DNA of 64,000 nt from Bolinopsis microptera (Eukaryota; Ctenophora; Tentaculata; Lobata; Bolinopsidae). The DNA is taken from NCBI RefSeq assembly GCF_026151205.1, contig NC_087078.1:16695118-16759117 (forward strand). The letters are read 5' to 3'. Numbering within the stretch: the first letter of the stretch is position 1; every line of letters starts with the position of its first letter. The notes below the pieces were generated by a model. The model had not been told where the DNA came from, did not search any database, and was given only the letters and a program-made list of their open reading frames with translations. Shown here in pieces: positions 5,988 to 64,000 of the stretch. The position numbers and the translations under genes were made by a program.

Positions 5988-7285
5988 CTATGTTCTTTGT
6001 GATTTACGTAATCCAGGTAGGTTGTGGAGTAAAAATGGTGGCCATTCGTCGTTGCAGCCAGCACTTTGCAAGTCTAGTAGTACTTTTTTTGACGAATTCT
6101 TATATATGTTGATAGAAAATATACTGGATGGGCATGTAATGCGAGTGTTATGCTCTGAAATAGCGAGCATTGGGCCTTTATAAAAGATGCTAGATCTCAG
6201 GTCAGTCTGTGAGTAAATTGATAACCAGTCTAAGTTTTGTTCGTGTGACGTTCCTTGTTTGGGTGTGTTAGGAGGGAAAAGTTCTGAAATCGATTTAGGT
6301 AACAAACTAGACATATTTCGAACTTTGTGCAGTAAAATAAGTGCGTTTTTAACGATAACCCCTTGAACGGTTAAGACCTCGTGTTCTTTAAATGCTAGTT
6401 TTGTGTGTTCTGGCAGTTTTCCGTCCTTGTAGTAGTAGTTCACATTTCCGGCCATAACTGCCTTCATACCTTGTTTTTGTTTAGCAAAAAGAGATTCTAT
6501 AAGAGATTTTGAAGCAAATCCCCAGACAAGTGAGCAAAAGTTTAAATGGGACTGAACAAAACTTTGGAAAATCTGTAAACGGGCCTTCATTGGCAATTTA
6601 TGTTTTATCCTGTACATCACCCCAATAAATCTTGACATCTTGCTCCTCAGTGCTTTTATGTGGCTACTCCAGTTAAGCTTTTCATCTACAATTACACCAA
6701 GAAACCGGGCTTCAGTTTTACGTTCTAATACTGTATTTTCTATTTGTACTTTAATCAATGATGGTTCTATGCGCTTTTTCGAGAAAATCATATAACACGT
6801 CTTTTTTAGATTTAGTGCTAATCCGTTGCTATTAACCCACCGTGATAATGTTTCCGTTAGTTGGTTGACCCTTAGCATTAGTTCTTGGACATTGGAACCG
6901 TTAATAATGATATTTGCATCGTCTGCATAAAGTATGAATTTTACCATCATGTTAGAAATACCGGGAAGATCGTTGATGTATATGACGAAAAGTAAGGGAC
7001 CTAGTATGCTCCCTTGTGGAACACCATGCACAATAGGCTTGTGGGACGAATGTGAATTGTTTATTGCTACATATTGGCTTCTATCACTTAGGTATGACTC
7101 AAACCACTTTAGAGCTATTCCCCGGATGCCGTAGTGCTGTAATTTATTTAGCAGTGTAGCATGATCCAGGACGTCAAACGCTTTACTGTAATCTAATAAT
7201 AGCAGTAGTGAAATTTGGTTTTTGCTAAGAGAGTGTAAAATTGTACTTTGTGCATTAAGAAGAGCATGTTCACAGTTTATCTCTT
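5988..7285 (-). mobile_element. 5'-truncated LINE reverse transcriptase
   Basis: The minus-strand frame is open from about 7285 to a stop at 5988, roughly 430 codons. It carries reverse transcriptase palm signatures in order: LLDYSKAFDVLDH near 7150-7200, GVPQGSILGPLLF just below 7030, and the catalytic YADD in FILYADDA near 6925. A thumb-like section and a long C-terminal tail follow. No endonuclease or upstream RT fingers are present: above 7285 the frame meets stops at once, the pattern expected of 5' truncation on insertion. The motif style fits the Jockey/CR1-like clades, but I cannot assign a clade. No frameshift is visible in the remaining part, so the copy may be young. The first start codon offered in the frame (GTG at 7031) is an accident; the true frame extends above it. 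Confidence 0.85.
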
Positions 7286-22309: not shown

Positions 22310-24552
22310 ATGGGTCTCCTTATCCTTCTATGGATCCTCTCAATATGCTATAGAATAACGTCTGGTATATCCTGTTGGCCAATTCTTGCCCCCAGCCAAC
22401 TCACAAGAACAGGTGTGATAGTACTCAATAATGCTACATCACTATACGGGATGATAACTCTTGAAAGTGAGGAGATACCTGATGGAGGAGTCTTGGAATT
22501 CCTCATTGATCGTGAAGATAGTCAAGGTAACGGTGGAAGATATGAGAACCTGGATGAAGAACAATATGACGTACTCTTGAGGATTGAGTTCACTCCAGAT
22601 AAAATAGTGATGTCGAACAGTATAATAGGGGAGGACTTGGTCGGGGAGCAGGAGTTTCTGCTGAATCCTAATCGGACAGAAGGTTCTCCAATATTCCTTC
22701 AATTACTGGGAAGGTTGGTTAATCCCTCTAGTTTATACTAATCAATATAGTACGGTGGATATTTTTCGAAAGCACCTCTTTCAATGGTCCTGCTTAGAAC
22801 TTAACTAGTCCATTTTTACTTTTAAAGCCTCGACATTTTTTGATATTCTTATTTTTTAGTGAGGGCAAAACAAGTATCAAGATCTTCGGAAATGCGCTGG
22901 AGGAAAAACTTGATAGTTATCAATTCTCAGAGAACTTTCTTCGTGACATGAAATTTCGAATGATATCCAAAACTTTTGAACTGAGTGTTTTAGATTTCTG
23001 CTCGACTTCCTACCCAGAGATTGTGTGCGAGCCAGATCTTTACCAAGGGTTAAATTCGGATGAATCTTTGACGTTTCATCACAGCGAATGTGTAGAGACA
23101 TTGGTCATTCACCCGGACGAAGAACGGTTATTGAAGTGTGTTGGCTATGGAGCTCCCGTCATGGGAGCAAGTTGGGACTTAGTAGGTAAGTTTGATTTGG
23201 TAGGTACTGATGCTGATATTGAAGTATCCCATAAGGGGTGTTATGCTTTTCAAACAACAAAGAAGCTGGTTAACAGTGGTGCTGAATCTCTTCAAGGCCA
23301 GGTAACGTGTGAAATTTGGAACAAGCACTTTCTATTTCCTCATCGGTACAAGGCAAAGAAATTTATCATCACGTTTGTAAAGAGAATTACGGAGAAGAAC
23401 ACTACTCCTTCAAAACTAACCACGTCTGATAAACCAACTAGTTCGAACGCAGAAGAGTTGGTTACAACTGAGGAGGGCAAAGCAACTGAAAAAGTAGAAC
23501 CAGTCATCAAGCCAACTGAGGAGAGAAAAGCGACTGAAAAAGTAGAATCAACCACCAAGCCAGCTCTGACTTCAAAGATTCAATCGATCACAACAATGGA
23601 CTCTGAGAACAGTGCAACTACTCGGTCAAGTGATAATAATCCTCTTACATCTCACAAGAGGAACTCTACCACCAGAAGAAGCAATATTACCCTTGCGCCG
23701 GCGGATTTATCCGTCAACACAATAGATAGGAACCCCGGTCTTTACCAACCCTCACCTGTAACAGTCTACATACTATCCTTGTTCCTGGTGTCCTGTGTAG
23801 TCGGAGTACTATGCTTTATGTCCGCTGCTATCTGCAGAAAGCGTCAAGGAATCTCACTGATTCAACTTGATAATCTTATATCTGAACAGTGCCGCAAAGA
23901 TTCTGTGCCTAAGATAGCTGTCCCCCCAGTTCCTAAGTGCTATGAAAGACAGAAGACAACATCCACTGTCATGTCCTGTTCTGTTGACGAGGATCCCGCA
24001 GTGGAACACATCTACCAAACCATTGATGAAGCCCACGATCCCGACTATTGTTATGCTTGGACTGTTCCTCCAGTGGTTCTGCAGAAATCTAAAGTGGACG
24101 TCCAACTGGTTCTGACGCCTACTTCTATTTCAAAGAGTAGGTCTGAAGGATACGGCCTTCAGTCTTCCGGAGAAGGTAAGCACTCGATCTTCAGCCAATC
24201 CACCTCAGGTGCATCAGCCTATCAGCGGACTTATTCCAACACTGGTATTTGCTCCTCGGAGGATCTGTCTCTGTCCGTACCTGCAATTTGTGTTGATGAC
24301 GTTGAGTTTTACGCCGAATCTGCAACCGGTCCATATCGTCCTGGTTCATGTGCTAGAAGCCGTGCTCAACGACAGTTCATCAAGTCGGAATACATATCAC
24401 TTGCAGCAGCAAAAGCTCAACCAGGAATCTTACATTTGACCGAAACCGAGGAAAGCATACAGATTTCGGTACCAGAAACTCGTTTAGATGTTGAAACTGT
24501 GGTCGAAACGGAGGATAATGTTGCAATTGATTTTGCAACGATTGATGAGTAA
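22310..24552 (+). CDS. Type I membrane receptor, Ig-like ectodomain, ITIM-like tail
   Basis: Two exons, 22310-22713 and 22860-24552. The intron is GT-AG, 146 bp, phase 2, and rebuilds a Ser codon. The predicted product is 698 residues. Residues 1 to about 20 are a hydrophobic signal peptide. Residues about 25-205 form a beta-rich domain, perhaps galectin/ConA-like (weak inference). Residues about 205-300 are Ig-like: Cys228, Trp240 and Cys285 have Ig spacing, with a G-x-P motif after the first Cys. Residues about 310-413 are a Thr/Ser/Lys-rich stalk with an imperfect GKATEKVE repeat. A single membrane segment lies near 435-461, followed by RKR and a ~235-residue tail. The tail has Tyr520 (EHIYQTI) and Tyr646 in S-E-Y-I-S-L, which fits the ITIM consensus. 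Ectodomain plus ITIM-like tail suggests a recognition or inhibitory receptor; the ligand is unknown. Alr-type allorecognition proteins share this general plan, but homology is not shown. Confidence 0.72.
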
Positions 24553-25219: not shown

Positions 25220-25993
25220 ATGCCTTTTGCGGGGTACATATTATGCTTCATCCTACTAACTGGTGTGATTTCAGCAATCTTTTCAATATTCACTGCTGCC
25301 TGTAGGAAACGTCATCAAGATCTCGCCCTGATTCAACTTGACAACCTAAAAGCTGAAAAATACCGCAAGGACTTACCTCCTAATATCCCTCTTCCTCCAG
25401 TTCCCAATTCTTACGGAAAACAGAAGGTAGCATCTACCATAGTTTATCCTGCTGCTGATGAGGATCCACCAGTCGAGCACATCTACCAACCCGTTGACAA
25501 TGACCAAGATCTCGACTACTGCTACGCTTGGAGTGTGGATGAGGAAGTCATCAAGAAATCTAAAGTGAAGGTCCGAATGGTTCTGACCCCTACTCCTGTT
25601 CCAAACAGTGGGTCTGAAGGATACGGTCGTCAGTCTTCCGCAGGTGCATCAGCCTATCAGCGGAATTATTCCAACACTGGTATTTGCTCCTCGGAGGATC
25701 TGTCGCTGCCCGTACCTGAAATTTGTGTTGATGATGTTGAGTTTGACGCCGAATCTGCAACCGGTCCATATCGTCCTCTTCGTCCTGGTTCATGTGCTAG
25801 AAGCCGTGCTCAACGACAGTTCCTCAAGTCGGAATACATATCACTTGCAGCTGCGACATCTAATTTAGATACCTCAAGATTAGCTGAACCCACCGAGGAG
25901 TATATATCACTTTCTGCGATAAAATATCACTTAGAAATCTCCCATATCTCAACACCGGTCGAAACTGACGAGAATGATATTGACTATTGTTGA
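25220..25993 (+). CDS. Tail-only paralogue of the receptor (TM plus cytoplasmic tail)
   Basis: A single open frame, 257 codons from ATG 25220; in-frame sequence stays open up to a stop at 25112 without an obvious splice acceptor. It reads a membrane segment (about residues 5-27), a basic stop-transfer (CRKRH) and a tail collinear with the receptor at 22310-24552, including QLDNLKAEKYRKD, EHIYQPV (Tyr89) and K-S-E-Y-I-S-L (Tyr206). A second E-Y-I-S-L follows (Tyr228). Differences from the upstream gene are substitutions and whole-codon indels, so the frame has been kept. The part at 25640-25850 is almost identical in DNA to 24205-24410, while the membrane part is much more diverged. It may be a 5'-truncated duplicate, a signal-anchor decoy, or a cassette of 3' exons used by splicing from elsewhere. 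Confidence 0.6.
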   Translation: MPFAGYILCFILLTGVISAIFSIFTAACRKRHQDLALIQLDNLKAEKYRKDLPPNIPLPPVPNSYGKQKVASTIVYPAADEDPPVEHIYQPVDNDQDLDYCYAWSVDEEVIKKSKVKVRMVLTPTPVPNSGSEGYGRQSSAGASAYQRNYSNTGICSSEDLSLPVPEICVDDVEFDAESATGPYRPLRPGSCARSRAQRQFLKSEYISLAAATSNLDTSRLAEPTEEYISLSAIKYHLEISHISTPVETDENDIDYC

Positions 25994-39893: not shown

Positions 39894-42800
39894 TTATCTT
39901 GAATATCCATTTTTCATAATATATATGAACTTATAGACTTGCAAACGTTCATCAGTAACTGTAAGCGAGTAAATAACAATTAGTGAACAATTAAAGTTAT
40001 ACAAATTAACCTGTGTTTGATAGTCCTCATGTTCCCTGTACCGTCGGTGTAGTGAAATGTTGAGGAATATCGCGATAACCTGTATGAACATGAACACGAG
40101 GGCCGCTGAGCCTGCTATCGTCAACCACTGCTGGGCGTAATCTTCCACGATATCGTAACAACCCTGGGGAAGTCAAGTTTAACAAGATAAACACGGTGTT
40201 CCTTAGTGCTGAAGATTAGGTCGATCATGAATCGTGATTATATAAGTGATTTGTACGGTCTCAAAAAGGGTGAACAGTGCGGCGGAATTTTAAAACTCTT
40301 ACAGTTCTATATGAAATTGGCCCAGAATTTAACATCTAATATTGCGAAAATACCTTAAGGTTAATGTTCCCTGGAGCCTTCTTGATGTCCTTCTTGTCTA
40401 TCACACCCTCTCCGCACTTTGCCTCCTTGGTCTTACAGCAAGAGTCAGGAAGCGACTAAATCGGGTACGATATTGGTTAGATACTGCCGTGTTATTGGGT
40501 TAGATACTGCCGTGTTATTGGGTTTAAGATACTGCCGTGTTATTGGGTTTAAGATACTGCCGTGTTATTGGGTTTAAGATACTGCCGTGTTATTGGGTTT
40601 AAGATACTGCCGTGTTATTGGGTTTAAGATACTGCCGTGTTATTGGGTTTAAGATACTGCCGTGTTATTGGGTTTAAGATACTGCCGTGTTATTGGGTTT
40701 AAGATACTGCCGTGTTATTGGGTTTGAGATACTGCCGTGTTATTGGGTTTAAGATACTGCCGTGTTATTGAGTTTGAGATACTGCCGTTTTATTGGGTTT
40801 AAGATACTGCCGTGTTATTGGGTTTAAGATACTGCCGTGTTATTGGGTTTAAGATACTGCCGTGTTATTGGGTTTGAGATACTGCCGTGTTATTGGGCTT
40901 AAGATACTGCCGTGTTATTGAGTTTGAGATACTGCCGTGTTATTGGGTTAGATACTGCCGTGTTATTGGGTTAGATACTGCCGTGTTATTGGGTTAGATA
41001 CTGCCGTGTTATTGGGTTTAAGATACTGCCGTGTTATTGGGTTTAAGATACTGCCGTGTTATTGGGTTTAAGATACTGCCGTGTTATTGGGTTTAAGATA
41101 CTGCCGTGTTATTGGGTTTAAGATACTGCCGTGTTATTGGGTTTAAGATACTGCCGTGTTATTGAGTTTGAGATACTGCCGTGTTATTGGATTTAAGATA
41201 CTGCCGTGTTATTGGGTTTAAGATACTGCCGTGTTATTGGGTTTAAGATACTGCCGTGTTATTGGGTTAGATACTGCCGTGTTATTGGGTTAGATACTGC
41301 CGTGTTATTGGGTTTAAGATACTGCCGTGTTATTGGGTTTAAGATACTGCCGTGTTATTGGGTTTAAGATACTGCCGTGTTATTGGGTTTGAGACTTTTT
41401 GATGTTCTGTATTAACTATCAGTATCACACATTACATCGACAGGTTGGACTGGTTGGTCGATACATAACTCAATTTGTTGACATGAAGATATGTTGATTG
41501 TTGATAATGATATTGAATTAGGATTCTATATTTACCCCAAACTTAGTGCTGAACCAGTTGGATGCGTTTGGTGTGGTGTAATCCTCCCAGCCGAACTGTC
41601 CACAACACTTGTGGTTCTCTTGAACATAGTCCCAGGAGTCCGTGAACTTGACGTTATCTCCTCCTTTTCCTGGTCGCGAGTATAGTAATTAGCAAGTGTG
41701 ATAATTTGACTAATATGAGGTTTGTTACGCTAAATACTCTAAATACTCTAAAAACCCCTGTTAATAGAATTAGAGATAATATGAGAATAGATAAAGTAAC
41801 TAAATCAACTGAAGAAAGGAATAGAATTAGACTAGATTTGTAACTAGCAAAACACAAAGAAATAAAGAACAAAGCCTAAGTATAATATCCAACACTAGAG
41901 TTAACAATTAACTATTGACATGCACGAACACTTATATTCTATAACTGCTACTATAAAAAATAGTATATAATAAATAGTATATAATACTATACAAATTGAC
42001 AGCTAACGTTTGCAAAGATCATTAAAATTTTTGGATCAGAATTTGTGCTTCTTAGAAATATAGCCATACTGTTATTAATATCCGTTAGATTCTCAAATTA
42101 TCAACGCATGATTCTGAAAACAGTTAAGTATCAATTTAATTAATAATCAATCAGTTAAGTATCAATTAAATGAATATTGCGTTAATTTAAGTACCGTAAA
42201 AGAGGAGTGAGTGTGTCATCCCATCCCGCATAAAGTAATGAATACTTGACTCAAATATGAACATGATAACCACAGCTGCAAACTGAGCTAGAAGCACAAT
42301 TATCATCGCAGCCAGGAACTAGGAGGATCAACGTTAATAATGTTAGCTATTTAGTTGGTACACTACAGTATACACATAGTGGGTTGCAGGAGGCTCACTT
42401 CCTGAGATGTCAGAAGATCTTTTATAGTTTTATCTTTTTATTGGTTTCCATAAAGTTTTAGAGATAATAGCAATTAGAGAATAGTGATACCAGGGGTGTA
42501 GGAATGATTTTCTTCATGGGGGGGCCTAATTCTAAATATTTTTTGGCGCTTCGCGCCACAGCATAAATTTTTTGGCGCTTCGCACCAAAGCCTTAATTTC
42601 GGGGGCCTCACGACAAATCGCGATTTTTTTTCAGTTCTCCACGTCATATTGCGCATTTTCCTTTAAATCTGAGGACCAAATATCACGTTTTCTATAATTA
42701 GTATATGAAACCAATCAGTGTCACTTCCACAACCTTCCAAATGTAGGTACTTCAAAAACCGAAAAAAATATTTTCGGCTCAGAATGATCAGGGTAGTATA

Positions 42801-45662: not shown

Positions 45663-48600
45663 CTAAAACATACATATTGCACCATCATGAAACTGTATAA
45701 CAACTTGGCAGCAGTCCCCATTAAAAGTACCCTCACAAGCAGCTGTAGTACACTCATGTTTTGTGTAGTCCGCAGGGTCAGTCGTAACACGGCTACATGT
45801 TTTACCCTTTTCACAGGGATCTGGGTCGCAGGGAGTTCTGAAATTTAATAAAAACAACGTTAATTGCTGTTTTAACGATTTTATTTACAAAACTTAAATA
45901 TAAAACAAAAAATATTACGAAGAGTGATTGCAACTATTAGAAGTTAGATGAAATAAAAATTGTATAAGTCTCGAAATTTACAATAATCAACGCTATTCAA
46001 TAAAATGAATACTTGGTGTGTGGTGGTTATTGAATAACATGAATTACCTTAGTTCCCAAAAATTTGTGTGCCATTATATTGAGCACAATTTATTTGAGCC
46101 CGAAAAATTTGGGCAGAAAATTTGAACTCATTTGGGCGACCGAAAATTTGGGCACAAATTCTTCGAAAAATGAACGATTTTCCACTAAAATTTCAGTTAG
46201 ATATTTGCCTTAGTTCATTATTATTCCTTATTATTCCAGTCATTTTGCTTTCAATTTTAAGCATGTAGGTGGTAGTCTGAGTTGTTTCACATTATGAAAT
46301 TTACGATCTGCCCCGTTGTCGGGAGAATTCTTGCCTGTTCAGATAATCTATCAGGGTAAAACAAAGCGTTGTGAGCCCAAATTCAAGTTCCCATCCAGCT
46401 TCCAGGTTACCCATACCCACAACCATTGGTCTAATACCCTAACCAGTGTCCAGTTCTTGGAGAAAATCCTTCTTCCCCACATAGAATCAGTTCGAGCCTC
46501 CATCAACAACCCTGAGCAGAAAGCGCTACTGATATCAGATGTGTTTCGGGCCCAACACACACAGACACTAAAAGATCTGATGACAGCCAACAACTGCATC
46601 CTACAGAAAGTTCCAGCTAATATGACCCATCATCTACAGCCCCTGGACATATCTATCAATGGACTGGCTAAGAAATTCATGCGCAATAAGTACGAAGATT
46701 GGTACGCGAAAAACATAGTGTGTCAGCTCAATGGAGGAGTTTCATCAGACAATGTGAAAATTGATACCTGCTTGACAGTGATCCGTGAAGTACACGCTCG
46801 TTGGATCAACGAACTTTTTGTATATTTAAAAGGGAGGCCAGATGACATAAGGAAAGGCTTTGAGAGGTCGGGTATAACTGATGCTTGTAGATCAGACTTT
46901 ACGGTGGATGATAATCCATTTGCAGATATTGTTTAAATCTCTAGCCATCCGTACCTCTAGCCATTTGTTTTATTAGTAGCTGTTAGTTATTCCAGTTATT
47001 TCTATTCATTTAAAATATAAGCCTTTTTACTTGGTCAAGCCATGAATGACAGATTAGAAAACTAAAATTTCAAATATTATTTCACTTGGATATGAAGAAA
47101 AAGCCATCTTTCTATAGATTTCAGGGCCACAGGCCAAATGCCAAAAGTTTGGTTAGCAAAAAATTTAGCAGACGGAAAAGATTTATGCAATTAATTTGGT
47201 CTGCAAAAAATTTGGGCGAGAGGCCCGCTCAAATTTTTTGTCGCCCAAATTTTTGGGAATTAAGGTATATTGAATATCAATTTTCAATCACCACCATGTA
47301 TAAATCTTTACTTACGAGGTAAATTGTTCACATGTATCTCCTTCTGTTCCTTGTGGACAGTCACACTCCAGTTCAACATCTTTAACAGAACACTCGCCCC
47401 CATATGAACAGTATTTTTCAGGACAAGTAACCTCCTCACAGACGTTCAAATAATCTTCTTTCTAAAATTATATAGTGAATTGATGATTAGGCGAATTTAT
47501 TGAACTCAAATTTCGGACAGCACATCTTCGCAGTGTGGACTGCTGAAAAATTACCCACAAAGAAAATTAAAAACGAAATTTGTGGTGACTCTTCATTTCA
47601 CAAGGTCTCTCAAAAATACACTTAGTCTTACCAGCTTGTAACCTGCACTTGCATCGCATTCACATATATTGTTACTATTGCATTGTCCAAACGTACAATC
47701 ATCATCTTCAGCACACACTGAATGAAAATAAAATAACTTCTAAACGAGTGACCGATTTTAAGCTATTCGAATAAATTGGTAGCATTAAACTGTCAATCAC
47801 TAAATCAAAAGCATATATTTAATTTTATTATTGTATACATATTTTACTTTTAGTATTTTTTCACTTACCGTCACAATCTTCAAGGGTTTCGTCAAAATAC
47901 CCTGTGTTTAGACAGGTCAATGTTTGTACATCCACATCTTTAGGTCCTCCTGAGACATGATATCCATCTGTACATGTGACAGTGACCACATCGTCTACAT
48001 TATACGGTCCGTCCGCACTAGCAGCTTGATTGGAGAGAACAAACGCATCGCACTGAACAGATGTACTGGTACACAGTCTTGGATCAGTGTTAGACTTCTC
48101 ATAACCATCGTTACATAGGCACTCTCCGTATTCTGTGCATGTTCCACCTACACAGTCCGCTACATTATCAGCACAGGCTGAAGGATACAATTTTTATCAG
48201 AATATATTATAAAATATCTTAATTTAAATTTAATATCCAACAAACTAGGACAACTGAAATGTAACATAGTTCTCAAAATCTGTAAGCTTCAACAAACAAA
48301 AAAGTATTAATCTAATTCTAAAAGATATCGTACAAATAACGAATCAAAGAACTTTGTGAAAATCGGTTGGGGATATTAAATAGGATTCAGGTCGAAATCC
48401 AAAACAGAAGCATCAACTCATTCTTCATCGTATATGGGAAACAACAATATTTTCAAGGCCCTTTCGTGGATTGTCTTTATCAAATGCACTTACCCACACA
48501 GCTAGCTGTACCGATACCACCTACAGCGGGATCAGGAACAAAATTACCGGCGTTACACTCAATGTTTCCTTCGACATCATCTATTGATGTACCCCAGGAA

Positions 48601-60207: not shown

Positions 60208-60932
60208 CGCTCTTACTAAATCGCTCGCCCAAATTTTAAGAAAATTCTTGTGAAAAGGCCTTTTAGGGATGAAATTGATCTTATTCGGTGTATTTTTGGA
60301 CGCTGATTCCGAATCAGCCCCCATGACGTAGGGTAAAAATGCTTCCCTGGAGAGTTATGGGCAAAAAAACCGTTTTGGTCACGTGACAGGCTAGTAAAAC
60401 ATGAATTCGATTGTTTAGGGCTCGGGTTAGGTTACCGGAAAAGTTACCGGCCAGCGGGCGCGCCACCAATATGATAGTTTCGATACAGCTGTAGACACCG
60501 CGCGTGTCTGTCAAGTATTTAGCCATTACAATTCATGTTTAGATTGCGCGCGCATAGGAATTCTGTCAAGAATAGTTAAATTTGACCACAAAATGCCATA
60601 AATGTATTCACAATGATTGGATAATGATGGTAAAAATTTAATCTTTAAAAGAATTTTTGAATTTTTAGTTTTCGTTCAACAAAACCGATTTTACAGTTCA
60701 AAAGCAGAATTTTCAACTTTTTAATAACAATCCCTTCACGCCGCGCCGATATGTGTTTCTGTACTAATTTGCGCTCTTATTTCGCGTTGGATACTTTTAC
60801 CTATAGATATGTCATTTTATAATTAGGATTGTTTCTGGGGCTCGCTTGCAATATATATATTCAACATTTTCTTTCCTATTTCCGTACATTTTGTATTTTC
60901 CTCGTTCGTGGTAATTAGTTTTTATTAGCACA
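60208..60932. other. Unrelated sequence from the duplication break to the large ORF
   Basis: Begins exactly where homology to the CCP cassette ends. It contains cgcccaaatttt near 60228, a CACGTGAC site at 60380 and a GC-rich patch near 60440-60550. It probably holds the end and 5' leader of the element encoding the ORF at 60933; no inverted repeat can be tested, since the other end lies outside the window. Confidence 0.4.
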
Positions 60933-63900
60933 ATGAGCAAACGATCACGTACCGAAATAGAAGTTCAATTTCTTAGCGACTGTGTATACTCTGCGTTAGT
61001 CAAATCTGGATACTCAAAGCTTCCTTTCTGTAAGTACATTTTGGCACATTTTGTATTGTCAGAATTTGACGGACGCGTAGAAGACCATGTGAATCAATTT
61101 CCCCATTATTTTGGTTACGTTCGTAATTACTTGGATTCGCGAAATTTTCGTCGAATTATTGGTCAAGCCAAGTGTATCGCCGATAATAAAGAGGTTTTAG
61201 ATTCTCTTAAGCAGACTTATAGGAGTGATCAAATTCGCATTTCACATGAAAACAGTAGGCCACAAGTAGAAGGCGTCCCTTGTAGTGTTTGTTTTAATAT
61301 GTCAAACAATGACGGAGGTGATAATTTGAAAAGTAGATGCAACAAAATTTTATCCGGATTTGCTAATAACGAGTTAGGTCGTGGAAAGAGTTTTAAGGAA
61401 ATCCATGAATGCATTTGCAGGACTTCCTACGAAATTCTTTCTAGCTACGATAAAAGTGTCGAAAATTTCGAAATATCTTTGAGCGAATTAAAAGTGGAAT
61501 TTGAGCGGTACAAATCGGAACTAACCATCAATGTTGCAAAATTCAATGATCATTTAACCGAGGCTAGTGCGCTTATCCACTATGGCAGTGGTCTTTCAGG
61601 AAGTCAGGTCGAGAATTTAGACCGTACTATATTTTGCACTGAATTTTCTAAAACAGACATCGAGCAACATCTGTCTAATCTACCAGATTATCGCCACATT
61701 AAGTCATCCGATCCAAATATTGAGCTTGGGGACCTGTTTAATGAATACTGTTCGCACGTCCTTACGTACCATTTCGAACCAAGTTTCTTTAAACTGGGTA
61801 CAAAATATAGTTTAACTGGCCCTAAAGGAGGGAAAAGATTGTCCGATTATGCACAATCTGTCTGCTTAAATTACCTTTTACTTCCGAGAAATCATGGTAT
61901 TTACAGTGAGTTAAGACCCATACTTGCTGTCCACAGTAATGCTCGGACACGCTACAAGCCCCACTCTCTAGTTGACGATCTTTATATCCCAAGAATTCCT
62001 CCAGCTAGTGTCGCTGATGAAAAAGTTGAAATACTAAGAGAACTCCAATCAATTTTGCTGGGGACTCCCCAGATACCACTTTTGTATGAAGGTTGGGATT
62101 TGGTTAAATCATGTCCTAAACAGGTAGCAGCTAACTCACGATTAGTTGACCTTATGTCAATTAGAGAACATTACCTAAGTTTCCAGTCTGGTAATAATTT
62201 CTTGAAGGCCAAACCAAAAGAGCATTACCAAAATTTGTCGATTGACGAGGTGAAATGCACCTTAAAGAGTTATAGTTTGATTTGTGAGAGCGACTTCCAA
62301 AAATACGACGAAAGTTTTCTTAGAAAAAAACTTGAAGAAGCTGAGTCTACAAGGAGCTTTGCAATGTGGTATGATCACGCCGTTATTTTAAACAGAAGTT
62401 ACATCCTTTTTGTCGTTTGGCCTTTATACAGCAAGTCCCTTTACCAATCAAATGATCTATGTGAAGGGGATTTACAAAAAGCTGTCGAGCAAATTTACAT
62501 CCATTACATAGCTATGTCTCCTTCGACAACCAAAAGCGAAGAGGCATTACAAGAATTTAGAACTAACCAGTTAGCTGCCTTTAAAGTTACAATTAAAACA
62601 AACTGCGGAATCGAATTCACGGACAGATTAAAATTTGTGAATGGCGATGCGCCTGTAAGGAGTGTTGAGAATGGTTCAAACAAGAGTGGACCGTATCGTA
62701 ATCCTACCTTATTAGAATGCTTCCCTATAGATCATTATGAATATTACGAAATTGTAAAATTTGAACACATGACATTCGACAAAACTACAAAACATGCTAA
62801 TAAAGGTGGGTTCTTCGAAAATCCTGAAAATCGCGGAAAATCGCTACAAGATTTAAAAGATAAACCCGCCTCAGCATTAGAACTAATGAAAATAAGATGG
62901 CCACATAAGCGTCTTGATAATATGAATAGCGAACAGATAAAAGAGTTTTTGAAAAATGACTTAGGGGGTATAAGGCGACCCCCTATTCTATTCATGGCTA
63001 CTCCTGATAAATCACCTGAAGAAATTGGTCTTGAAGGGGCTGAACTTTTGGGAAATGAATGTCTTCATGGTCTCAGAGGCGAAACCCTCAAATCATTCAA
63101 ACACATTCCAGGACCTCAAGGTGACGGACCATTAAAATTAGTACATGAGATTATATCCAATTGTTGTAATTTTGATTACGGATCAAAACACGAAAAATCT
63201 GGCGAGTCAGTTTTTAAGAATTTAATTGAAATTGTCCAGAAACTAGAAATGAAATTATTTCCAGACGGGTTGTCCTGTAATATTTGCGGGGATATTTTTA
63301 CTTTGTCAATTGTGACCAAATGTCCTAAATGCCTTTATTATACTTACTTCAGAGCACTTCTAGAAATTCATATATTTGGATACAAAGATGAGTCTAAACG
63401 GTCAGGTGCCTCCACATTGCTGCTTCATAATATAATTTTTGTATGGTTTAAAACTTTGAAAGAAATACAGATTACGATACCTACTGCTCTTAAAGTTATT
63501 AATTCTATTTACTTCCTCGGCATAGTTTACTACATGGGTCCAACATTCGAACTTACTAACTTTTTGTCAGTGCATGCCGGACGCATGGAAGATATTTTTC
63601 GGCAACTGAAGGTCTCTGCTCACAGTTTTACCAATCGAAAACACTTTCAAGAGAGTTTCCTGCTTAATGTCCTAAAACGTCAAGAAATCTCCAGATACTT
63701 TAAAACTGCAAACAATTTCAAAACTTATCGTAGCACAGTTTCTTCTGCCATCACTGCATTTCATCAAAGAAGTCCTATTCCTGACATTGTTTTTACCAAA
63801 GAATTTATAACGTCCAACATCCAAGACTTTGCAGGACACGTTTATCGCATTTCAAATTTTGTCGTTTCCAATACTAATGAACGATATATGAGTTTGTCCT

Positions 63901-64000
63901 CGGAAAACGACCTTAAATTCTTTTCCTCTAGAGAATGTCGCTCAGAAAACTGTCTGTCATCATGCCCACCATGTTTATCAAAGTTATTTCCTGATTTCCC
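60933..64000 (+). CDS. Very long intronless ORF, DDE-transposase-like, open at window end
   Basis: From ATG 60933 the frame stays open to 64000: 1022 codons with no stop, still open. Translation shows: an N-terminal Cys group (C117-x2-C120, C136, C160, C162) that could bind zinc; a helical section around residues 165-210; a central region rich in aromatic and charged residues; an L-H-G-L-R-G motif around His712; a zinc-ribbon-like C782-x2-C785-x11-C797-x2-C800; an H-A-G-R-M-E-D motif with Glu886 followed by T-N-R-K-H; and C-terminal cysteines 1002, 1007, 1011 and 1014. A LH-(D/G)-x-(K/R)-G motif, a zinc finger and a late Glu in (G)R-x-E-x-x-F are the arrangement I associate with large DDE transposases with an inserted zinc-binding domain. 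I cannot assign a family. No intron, lineage-type exon or gene neighbour supports a host gene; capture by the host cannot be excluded. Confidence 0.7.
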   Translation, partial: MSKRSRTEIEVQFLSDCVYSALVKSGYSKLPFCKYILAHFVLSEFDGRVEDHVNQFPHYFGYVRNYLDSRNFRRIIGQAKCIADNKEVLDSLKQTYRSDQIRISHENSRPQVEGVPCSVCFNMSNNDGGDNLKSRCNKILSGFANNELGRGKSFKEIHECICRTSYEILSSYDKSVENFEISLSELKVEFERYKSELTINVAKFNDHLTEASALIHYGSGLSGSQVENLDRTIFCTEFSKTDIEQHLSNLPDYRHIKSSDPNIELGDLFNEYCSHVLTYHFEPSFFKLGTKYSLTGPKGGKRLSDYAQSVCLNYLLLPRNHGIYSELRPILAVHSNARTRYKPHSLVDDLYIPRIPPASVADEKVEILRELQSILLGTPQIPLLYEGWDLVKSCPKQVAANSRLVDLMSIREHYLSFQSGNNFLKAKPKEHYQNLSIDEVKCTLKSYSLICESDFQKYDESFLRKKLEEAESTRSFAMWYDHAVILNRSYILFVVWPLYSKSLYQSNDLCEGDLQKAVEQIYIHYIAMSPSTTKSEEALQEFRTNQLAAFKVTIKTNCGIEFTDRLKFVNGDAPVRSVENGSNKSGPYRNPTLLECFPIDHYEYYEIVKFEHMTFDKTTKHANKGGFFENPENRGKSLQDLKDKPASALELMKIRWPHKRLDNMNSEQIKEFLKNDLGGIRRPPILFMATPDKSPEEIGLEGAELLGNECLHGLRGETLKSFKHIPGPQGDGPLKLVHEIISNCCNFDYGSKHEKSGESVFKNLIEIVQKLEMKLFPDGLSCNICGDIFTLSIVTKCPKCLYYTYFRALLEIHIFGYKDESKRSGASTLLLHNIIFVWFKTLKEIQITIPTALKVINSIYFLGIVYYMGPTFELTNFLSVHAGRMEDIFRQLKVSAHSFTNRKHFQESFLLNVLKRQEISRYFKTANNFKTYRSTVSSAITAFHQRSPIPDIVFTKEFITSNIQDFAGHVYRISNFVVSNTNERYMSLSSENDLKFFSSRECRSENCLSSCPPCLSKLFPDF

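Follow-up and report, generated by a model that had tools for sequence, protein, structure and literature searches.

What kind of gene occupies the right-hand end of a 64,000-nucleotide stretch of the Bolinopsis microptera genome (C7:16695118-16759117; hereafter the window), where a reading frame opens at position 60933 and runs off the end? We consider it very probable that the frame encodes the transposase of an autonomous cut-and-paste DNA transposon of ~7.94 kb, with short inverted ends beginning CCCAGGAAA.. and a 2-bp target-site duplication.

Within the window the frame stays open for 1022 codons. On the longer contig it continues to 1261 codons before a stop (L009:4050-7835, corresponding to 60933-64718 if the numbering of the window is carried on), giving an intronless, intact ORF of 3.8 kb. 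Such a length greatly exceeds chance expectation: the stop-to-stop frame spans 1028 codons here, against a maximum of 196 in 100 first-order Markov simulations of 64 kb each. A preliminary description of this DNA had singled out the frame as the longest uninterrupted one in the window and had quoted motifs from its translation. Both points stand, as the second-longest ORF is 570 aa, and His712, the CxxC pairs at 782-785 and 797-800, and Glu886 sit at the residues given. The same description took 60933..64000 as the unit of interest, which is right for the ORF but not for the element, which is larger and begins at 60437. The features of the window that concern this element are the following.

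60329..60431, forward strand: distinct repeat next to the element, identical at 97 of 103 aligned positions to the joined flanks of the row insertion at L057
60437..64000, forward strand: window part of the transposon body, which continues to C7:16763496, ~4.4 kb past the window
60933..64000, forward strand: putative transposase ORF with its ATG at 60933, the rest lying beyond the window; 1261 aa when complete
61281..61292, forward strand: N-terminal CxxC (CSVC, residues 117-120), also present in two diverged families
62646..62648, forward strand: candidate first catalytic residue, D572 (GDAPVR)
63057..63059, forward strand: candidate second catalytic residue, E709 (NECLH, then H712)
63276..63332, forward strand: CxxC-x11-CxxC, candidate zinc ribbon (residues 782-800)
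63588..63590, forward strand: candidate third catalytic residue, E886 (GRMED)
63936..63974, forward strand: C-terminal cysteine cluster (residues 1002-1014), with its last CxxC kept in two relatives

Elsewhere in the window, a reverse transcriptase fragment, probably non-LTR, lies on the reverse strand at 5988-7031 (RVT_1, E 4.8e-15), and a DDE_1 endonuclease fragment, probably pogo-like, on the forward strand at 46316-46936 (E 3.6e-10). Two forward-strand ORFs without a Pfam match, 22840-24552 and 25220-25993, look alike by eye in their C-terminal regions (GICSSEDLSL..CARSRAQRQF.KSEYISLAAA) and, judging from that likeness, are probably tandem gene duplicates. A 25-bp unit is repeated 37 times with 96% matches at 40479-41394. 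Between 14000 and 22000 the GC skew is strongly negative (-0.31 to -0.38), and tandem repeats are many.

A six-frame search of the 264.65-Mb genome with the 1022-aa query returned 24 matching pieces, three of them full length, free of stops and listed at 100% identity. These full-length copies lie on C7, C4 and C11, and the 1261-aa ORF is intact in each. Pairwise alignments over ~7.94 kb contain 22, 21 and 13 substitutions and 13, 9 and 20 gap columns; within the ORF, the codon differences (synonymous/nonsynonymous) number 2/3, 2/3 and 2/0. Selection is not measurable on the full copies, because there are only three and their differences are too few. C9 holds three further copies and C12 another, each broken by an interruption, a truncation or an internal deletion; in the C12 copy, ~8 kb of other sequence separates the first 572 bp from the remainder. 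Pieces at C5:14.00-14.01 Mb are 67-94% identical and contain stops.

A frame intact over 3.8 kb could also belong to a gene of the host or to a domesticated transposase kept by selection, but this is extremely improbable and we reject it: three contigs each carry a nearly identical copy, the ends of these copies agree while their flanks do not, and broken copies exist besides. Instead, the element has been recently mobile: it has near-identical copies elsewhere in the genome, their aligned ends match, and they are accompanied by 2-bp target duplications. The earlier suggestion of an intact, recently mobile element is thereby borne out.

The boundaries of the element are well marked. Similarity between the full copies begins and stops sharply at the same points, and the ends common to the copies, CCCAGGAAA...TTTCCTGGG, are short imperfect inverted repeats. 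The left end is CCCAGGAAAAGTTACCGG in five of the six copies read, the exception being the window copy, which is without the first four bases (CCCA) of the others and reads ...GGTTACC followed directly by GGAAAAG. Likewise, the right end is TTTCCTGGG in five of the six, and in the copy C9b it is altered to TTTCCGGCCTGGG. The copies in which both ends are unaltered (C4, C11, C12 and C9c) each have an identical dinucleotide on both sides, namely AT, GA, TC and TT. The window copy has no duplication at its flanks.

These ends are found far beyond the autonomous copies. A 17-base terminal pattern, allowing at most one mismatch, matched the genome 669 times (360 forward, 309 reverse), and the control matched once. 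From the mismatch-free matches among those listed, we sampled five stretches, 20 isolated-looking places, and 11 rows together with the far end of a twelfth. A non-autonomous derivative of ~365-368 bp keeps both ends; over its final 116 bp it shows 85% identity to the autonomous element's right end. Many derivatives stand in tandem rows, where a derivative and a spacer of 338-340 bp are repeated with a period of ~703. The junction from derivative to spacer, allowing at most three mismatches, occurs 116 times in the genome, against none for the control. Rows were recorded at the following places.

L032 and L057-L068: tandem rows
C2:3357222-3363542: tandem row
C13:7406606-7413667: tandem row
C7:11710669-11724764: tandem row with at least 20 derivative-spacer junctions

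All seven rows that were read at both outer ends start and finish with a derivative end. Two spacers of the same row differ by 0.5% on average (12 pairs), and two from separate rows by 2.8% (178 pairs), in a set of 20 spacers drawn from 12 rows. At L031 (C11:11945269) both the derivative and the spacer have a relative, ~71-72% identical and similarly arranged. The composite layout therefore seems old, because a diverged relative is found in a like arrangement.

Target-site duplication extends from the autonomous copies to the derivatives and to whole rows. Taking autonomous and derivative copies together, 20 boundary pairs were compared: 18 have the same 2 bp on either side and none the same 3 bp, whereas mispaired boundaries agree at 2 bp in 49 of 380 cases. 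By class, the same 2 bp flank eight of nine solitary copies, four of four autonomous copies, and six of the seven rows for which both outer ends were read, each row being bounded as a whole. The count falls to 18/21 when the window copy is entered as a miss. Further, L034 and L053 are not independent, because their flanks are identical, and leaving one out gives 17/19. Fourteen of the isolated-looking places were left out of the count, comprising four without a reachable right end, nine bordering row spacer and one with the wrong right end (L037), as were the rows L058, L059, L060, L062 and L065 (last end missed by the exact test). Before curation, the derivative count had been 5/16 against 30/240 mispaired; ten of those 16 were later dropped, being the nine that border spacer and L037. 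An empty-site comparison is available for the row at L057 in the repeat at 60329-60431, because that repeat is an unoccupied version with a single AT at the junction. Inverted ends common to the copies and a target duplication of constant length (2 bp) are both hallmarks of DDE cut-and-paste elements. Counting against this reading are the two pairs without a duplication (the solitary L038 and the C2 row), the unduplicated window copy with its four missing left-end bases, and the altered right end of C9b.

The rows are a hybrid of transposon and satellite. We read them as units of at least two derivatives that moved as one element via their outer ends, after which the rows grew or were homogenised in place. 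Judging from the common ends and the duplication length, the 60933 protein probably mobilises both the derivatives and the rows. Tandem rows of transposable elements and satellites derived from them have been reported elsewhere (PMC9659126, PMC12628747, PMC11899658) and, going by the abstracts of those papers, likewise consist of transposon-derived units in tandem. In the rows described here, it is the entire row that carries element ends at its margins and, in six of seven cases, has a 2-bp duplication around it.

The protein itself has relatives within the genome. Two further transposase families are 30-33% identical to it in protein sequence. One is represented by an open, intact ORF of 1352 aa at C12:5051887-5055942 (L018, reverse strand, position 1872 from its end), with a broken copy on C10 that is 98.5% identical over 4380 bp; the other, at C5:22254124, consists of two adjacent frames. 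The left end of the L018 family is seemingly CCCTGCGG, since by eye 33 of 43 pieces among those listed start within positions 65-76 of the query. Its right end was sought in vain, and many short left-end copies of this family are scattered in the genome. At L020:2659-5130, an N-terminal stretch (FPxxFG ... CSICF) appears by eye twice in tandem in the L020 transposase, and once in the two others.

Common to all three families are the N-terminal CxxC, WYDHA, GDxPVR, ExLH, CxxC-x11-CxxC, GRxED and the C-terminal CxxC. The spacing of E709 and E886, 177 residues in this protein, is 186 and 184 in the two other families. H712 is followed by G, where both relatives have D. Conserved D, E and E residues, the two E separated by a cysteine block, are what would be expected of an RNase-H-type DDE transposase. 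The second acidic residue of a DDE transposase is usually D, and E in that place is unusual. The RNase-H fold stays putative, because of that unusual E and because the sole structural model (residues 520-961, window protein alone) has a mean pLDDT of 37.5 and is without value as evidence. Consequently, the proposal of a transposase with an inserted zinc domain stands as far as the cysteine block is concerned, which is kept in two other families, but the model confirmed neither fold nor zinc binding.

Profile and sequence libraries do not recognise the protein as a transposase, which also counts against our reading. No significant Pfam match, Transposase_21 included, was found for the 60933 protein or its two relatives, and none came from NCBIfam (searched with the window protein), PDB sequences or PHROGs. 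For the libraries searched, the preliminary description was therefore right that the protein allows no assignment to a named superfamily. Weak matches include PF24820 at residues 398-438 (E 0.027). In one relative the CxxC block drew PF11756 (E 0.0016 and 8.8e-4, both short of that profile's cut-off) and the zinc-ribbon profile PF02150 (E 0.068), and the PDB gave the zinc finger 2ytt (E 0.9); a few others also fell below cut-off. A genome search with PF02992 gave no matches, which does not show absence, because the control genomes were equally silent. No transposase of this kind was found in the literature searched, which lay mostly outside subscription papers. A gene of a virus or of a Maverick/Polinton-like element, for which a long and intronless frame might speak, is exceedingly unlikely, given that a single long frame lies between the ends (the next longest open stretches are only 106 and 92 codons among unspliced frames), that the ends are short and the duplication 2 bp, and that scans of IMG/VR and phage records, which reach mainly close relatives, confirmed no relative. 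A scan of GTDB confirmed none either.

If the frame does encode such a transposase, the protein would bind the element ends through its N-terminal and cysteine-rich regions, and an RNase-H-like acidic triad of D572, E709 and E886 would cut them. The ends would then be joined to the two strands of the target at points 2 bp apart, with repair giving the 2-bp duplication. The same protein would probably also move the 365-bp derivatives, which retain the two ends, along with the composite rows that they form.

A bolder possibility, which we advance only tentatively, is that the element belongs to an undescribed eukaryotic transposase lineage with at least three families in this genome. Such a lineage would have a D-E-E triad, a compact four-cysteine zinc ribbon in place of C(2)C/H(3-4)H, and CACTA-like ends that have either converged or been kept, and it would move tandem rows as composites. 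If true, composite movement of rows of the 365-bp derivative would lead straight from a transposon to a dispersed satellite. Rows bounded by duplications make that step towards satellite DNA directly examinable, and intact, nearly identical copies make the element testable in the laboratory. Elements like this one may be tallied as unknown repeats, because annotation of animal transposons leans on profiles, and none of the libraries used here detects this transposase.

Among the alternatives, the one that survives best is that this is an ordinary member of CACTA/EnSpm, within the CMCT clade, too diverged for profiles to recognise; we give it somewhat less than an even chance. In the portions of PMC1636069 and PMC4298943 on which we draw, animal CACTA-related (TRC) elements have ends beginning CCC and 2-bp duplications. 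The end is CCCAGTCAAC in A. aegypti and CCCTAGTAGC.. in T. castaneum, and SmTRC1 of Schistosoma shows the 2-bp duplication in seven of 14 copies (PMC1636069). Spongebob/EnSpm-4N1_HM of Hydra has the end CCCAGCCAACATTGAC, with CCC and a 2-bp duplication (PMC4298943). The element described here shares the CCC ends (CCCAG in Aedes and Hydra), the length of the duplication, repeats 3′ of the ORF and shortened derivatives (PMC1636069, PMC4298943).

The protein agrees less well. Its ORF is 1261 aa, against 560 in SmTRC1, and of the two eumetazoan TRC motifs given in that portion of PMC1636069, D-G...W-P is not seen by eye, and D-x-L/M-H-x3-L-G is narrowly missed by E-x-L-H-x3-G, in which E replaces D. 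Neither motif is thus present as written, although the near miss does resemble TRC. Further, PF02992 (Transposase_21) is matched neither by the protein nor by its relatives, and a CxxC-x11-CxxC block is present. According to the partial text of PMC12730594, the CMCT clade, which includes RAG1, has C(2)C and H(3-4)H between the second and third acidic residues, 5′-CA..TG-3′ ends 'in most cases', and duplications of 2-5 bp. The element agrees in its duplication length and in having CxxC between the second and third acidic residues, but its ends are CC..GG. From E709 to E886 the 60933 protein has no H(3)H or H(4)H, and all three families have two CxxC 11 residues apart. Histidine pairs in the relatives fall at unshared places: in one, HAIVH before and HKCGH within the first CxxC; in the other, HDSKGH at ExLH. 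We have therefore likened the element to TRC in its working but have not filed it there, because the protein tests fail.

It is possible, though doubtful, that the element belongs to another catalogued superfamily, such as Academ, KDZ or PHIS, or to a large set of unannotated animal proteins. Unannotated proteins of cnidarians, sponges and lancelets presumably carry similar motifs in the same order (WxDHA, GDxPA, xPLHDLKGH), which would speak for this reading. Academ elements have 3-4 bp duplications and a helicase or XPG nuclease, against a 2-bp duplication and one long frame here, and Transib elements duplicate 5 bp. The H(3-4)H of Transib/RAG1, as given in that partial text of PMC12730594, is not conserved here, and the KDZ duplications cited there, 8 bp in Zisupton and 7 bp in Kyakuja, are longer than ours. 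The 2-bp length does fall within the 0-4 bp range of PHIS (Harbinger, ISL2EU and kin) as excerpted from PMC10045372, but no Pfam transposase domain was matched. The same excerpt gives piggyBac/IS1380 5′-CC..GG-3′ termini, as here, and a 4-bp duplication, unlike the 2 bp of varied sequence and the lack of a matching Pfam transposase domain here.

The claim of an undescribed system must accordingly be divided: it fails for the ends and duplication, which match TRC elements as far as PMC1636069 and PMC4298943 describe them, and it may hold for the protein, whose lineage we could not place. The mechanism is probably of an ordinary class, cut-and-paste in type, with ends and a duplication that work like those of animal CACTA-related (TRC/EnSpm) elements.
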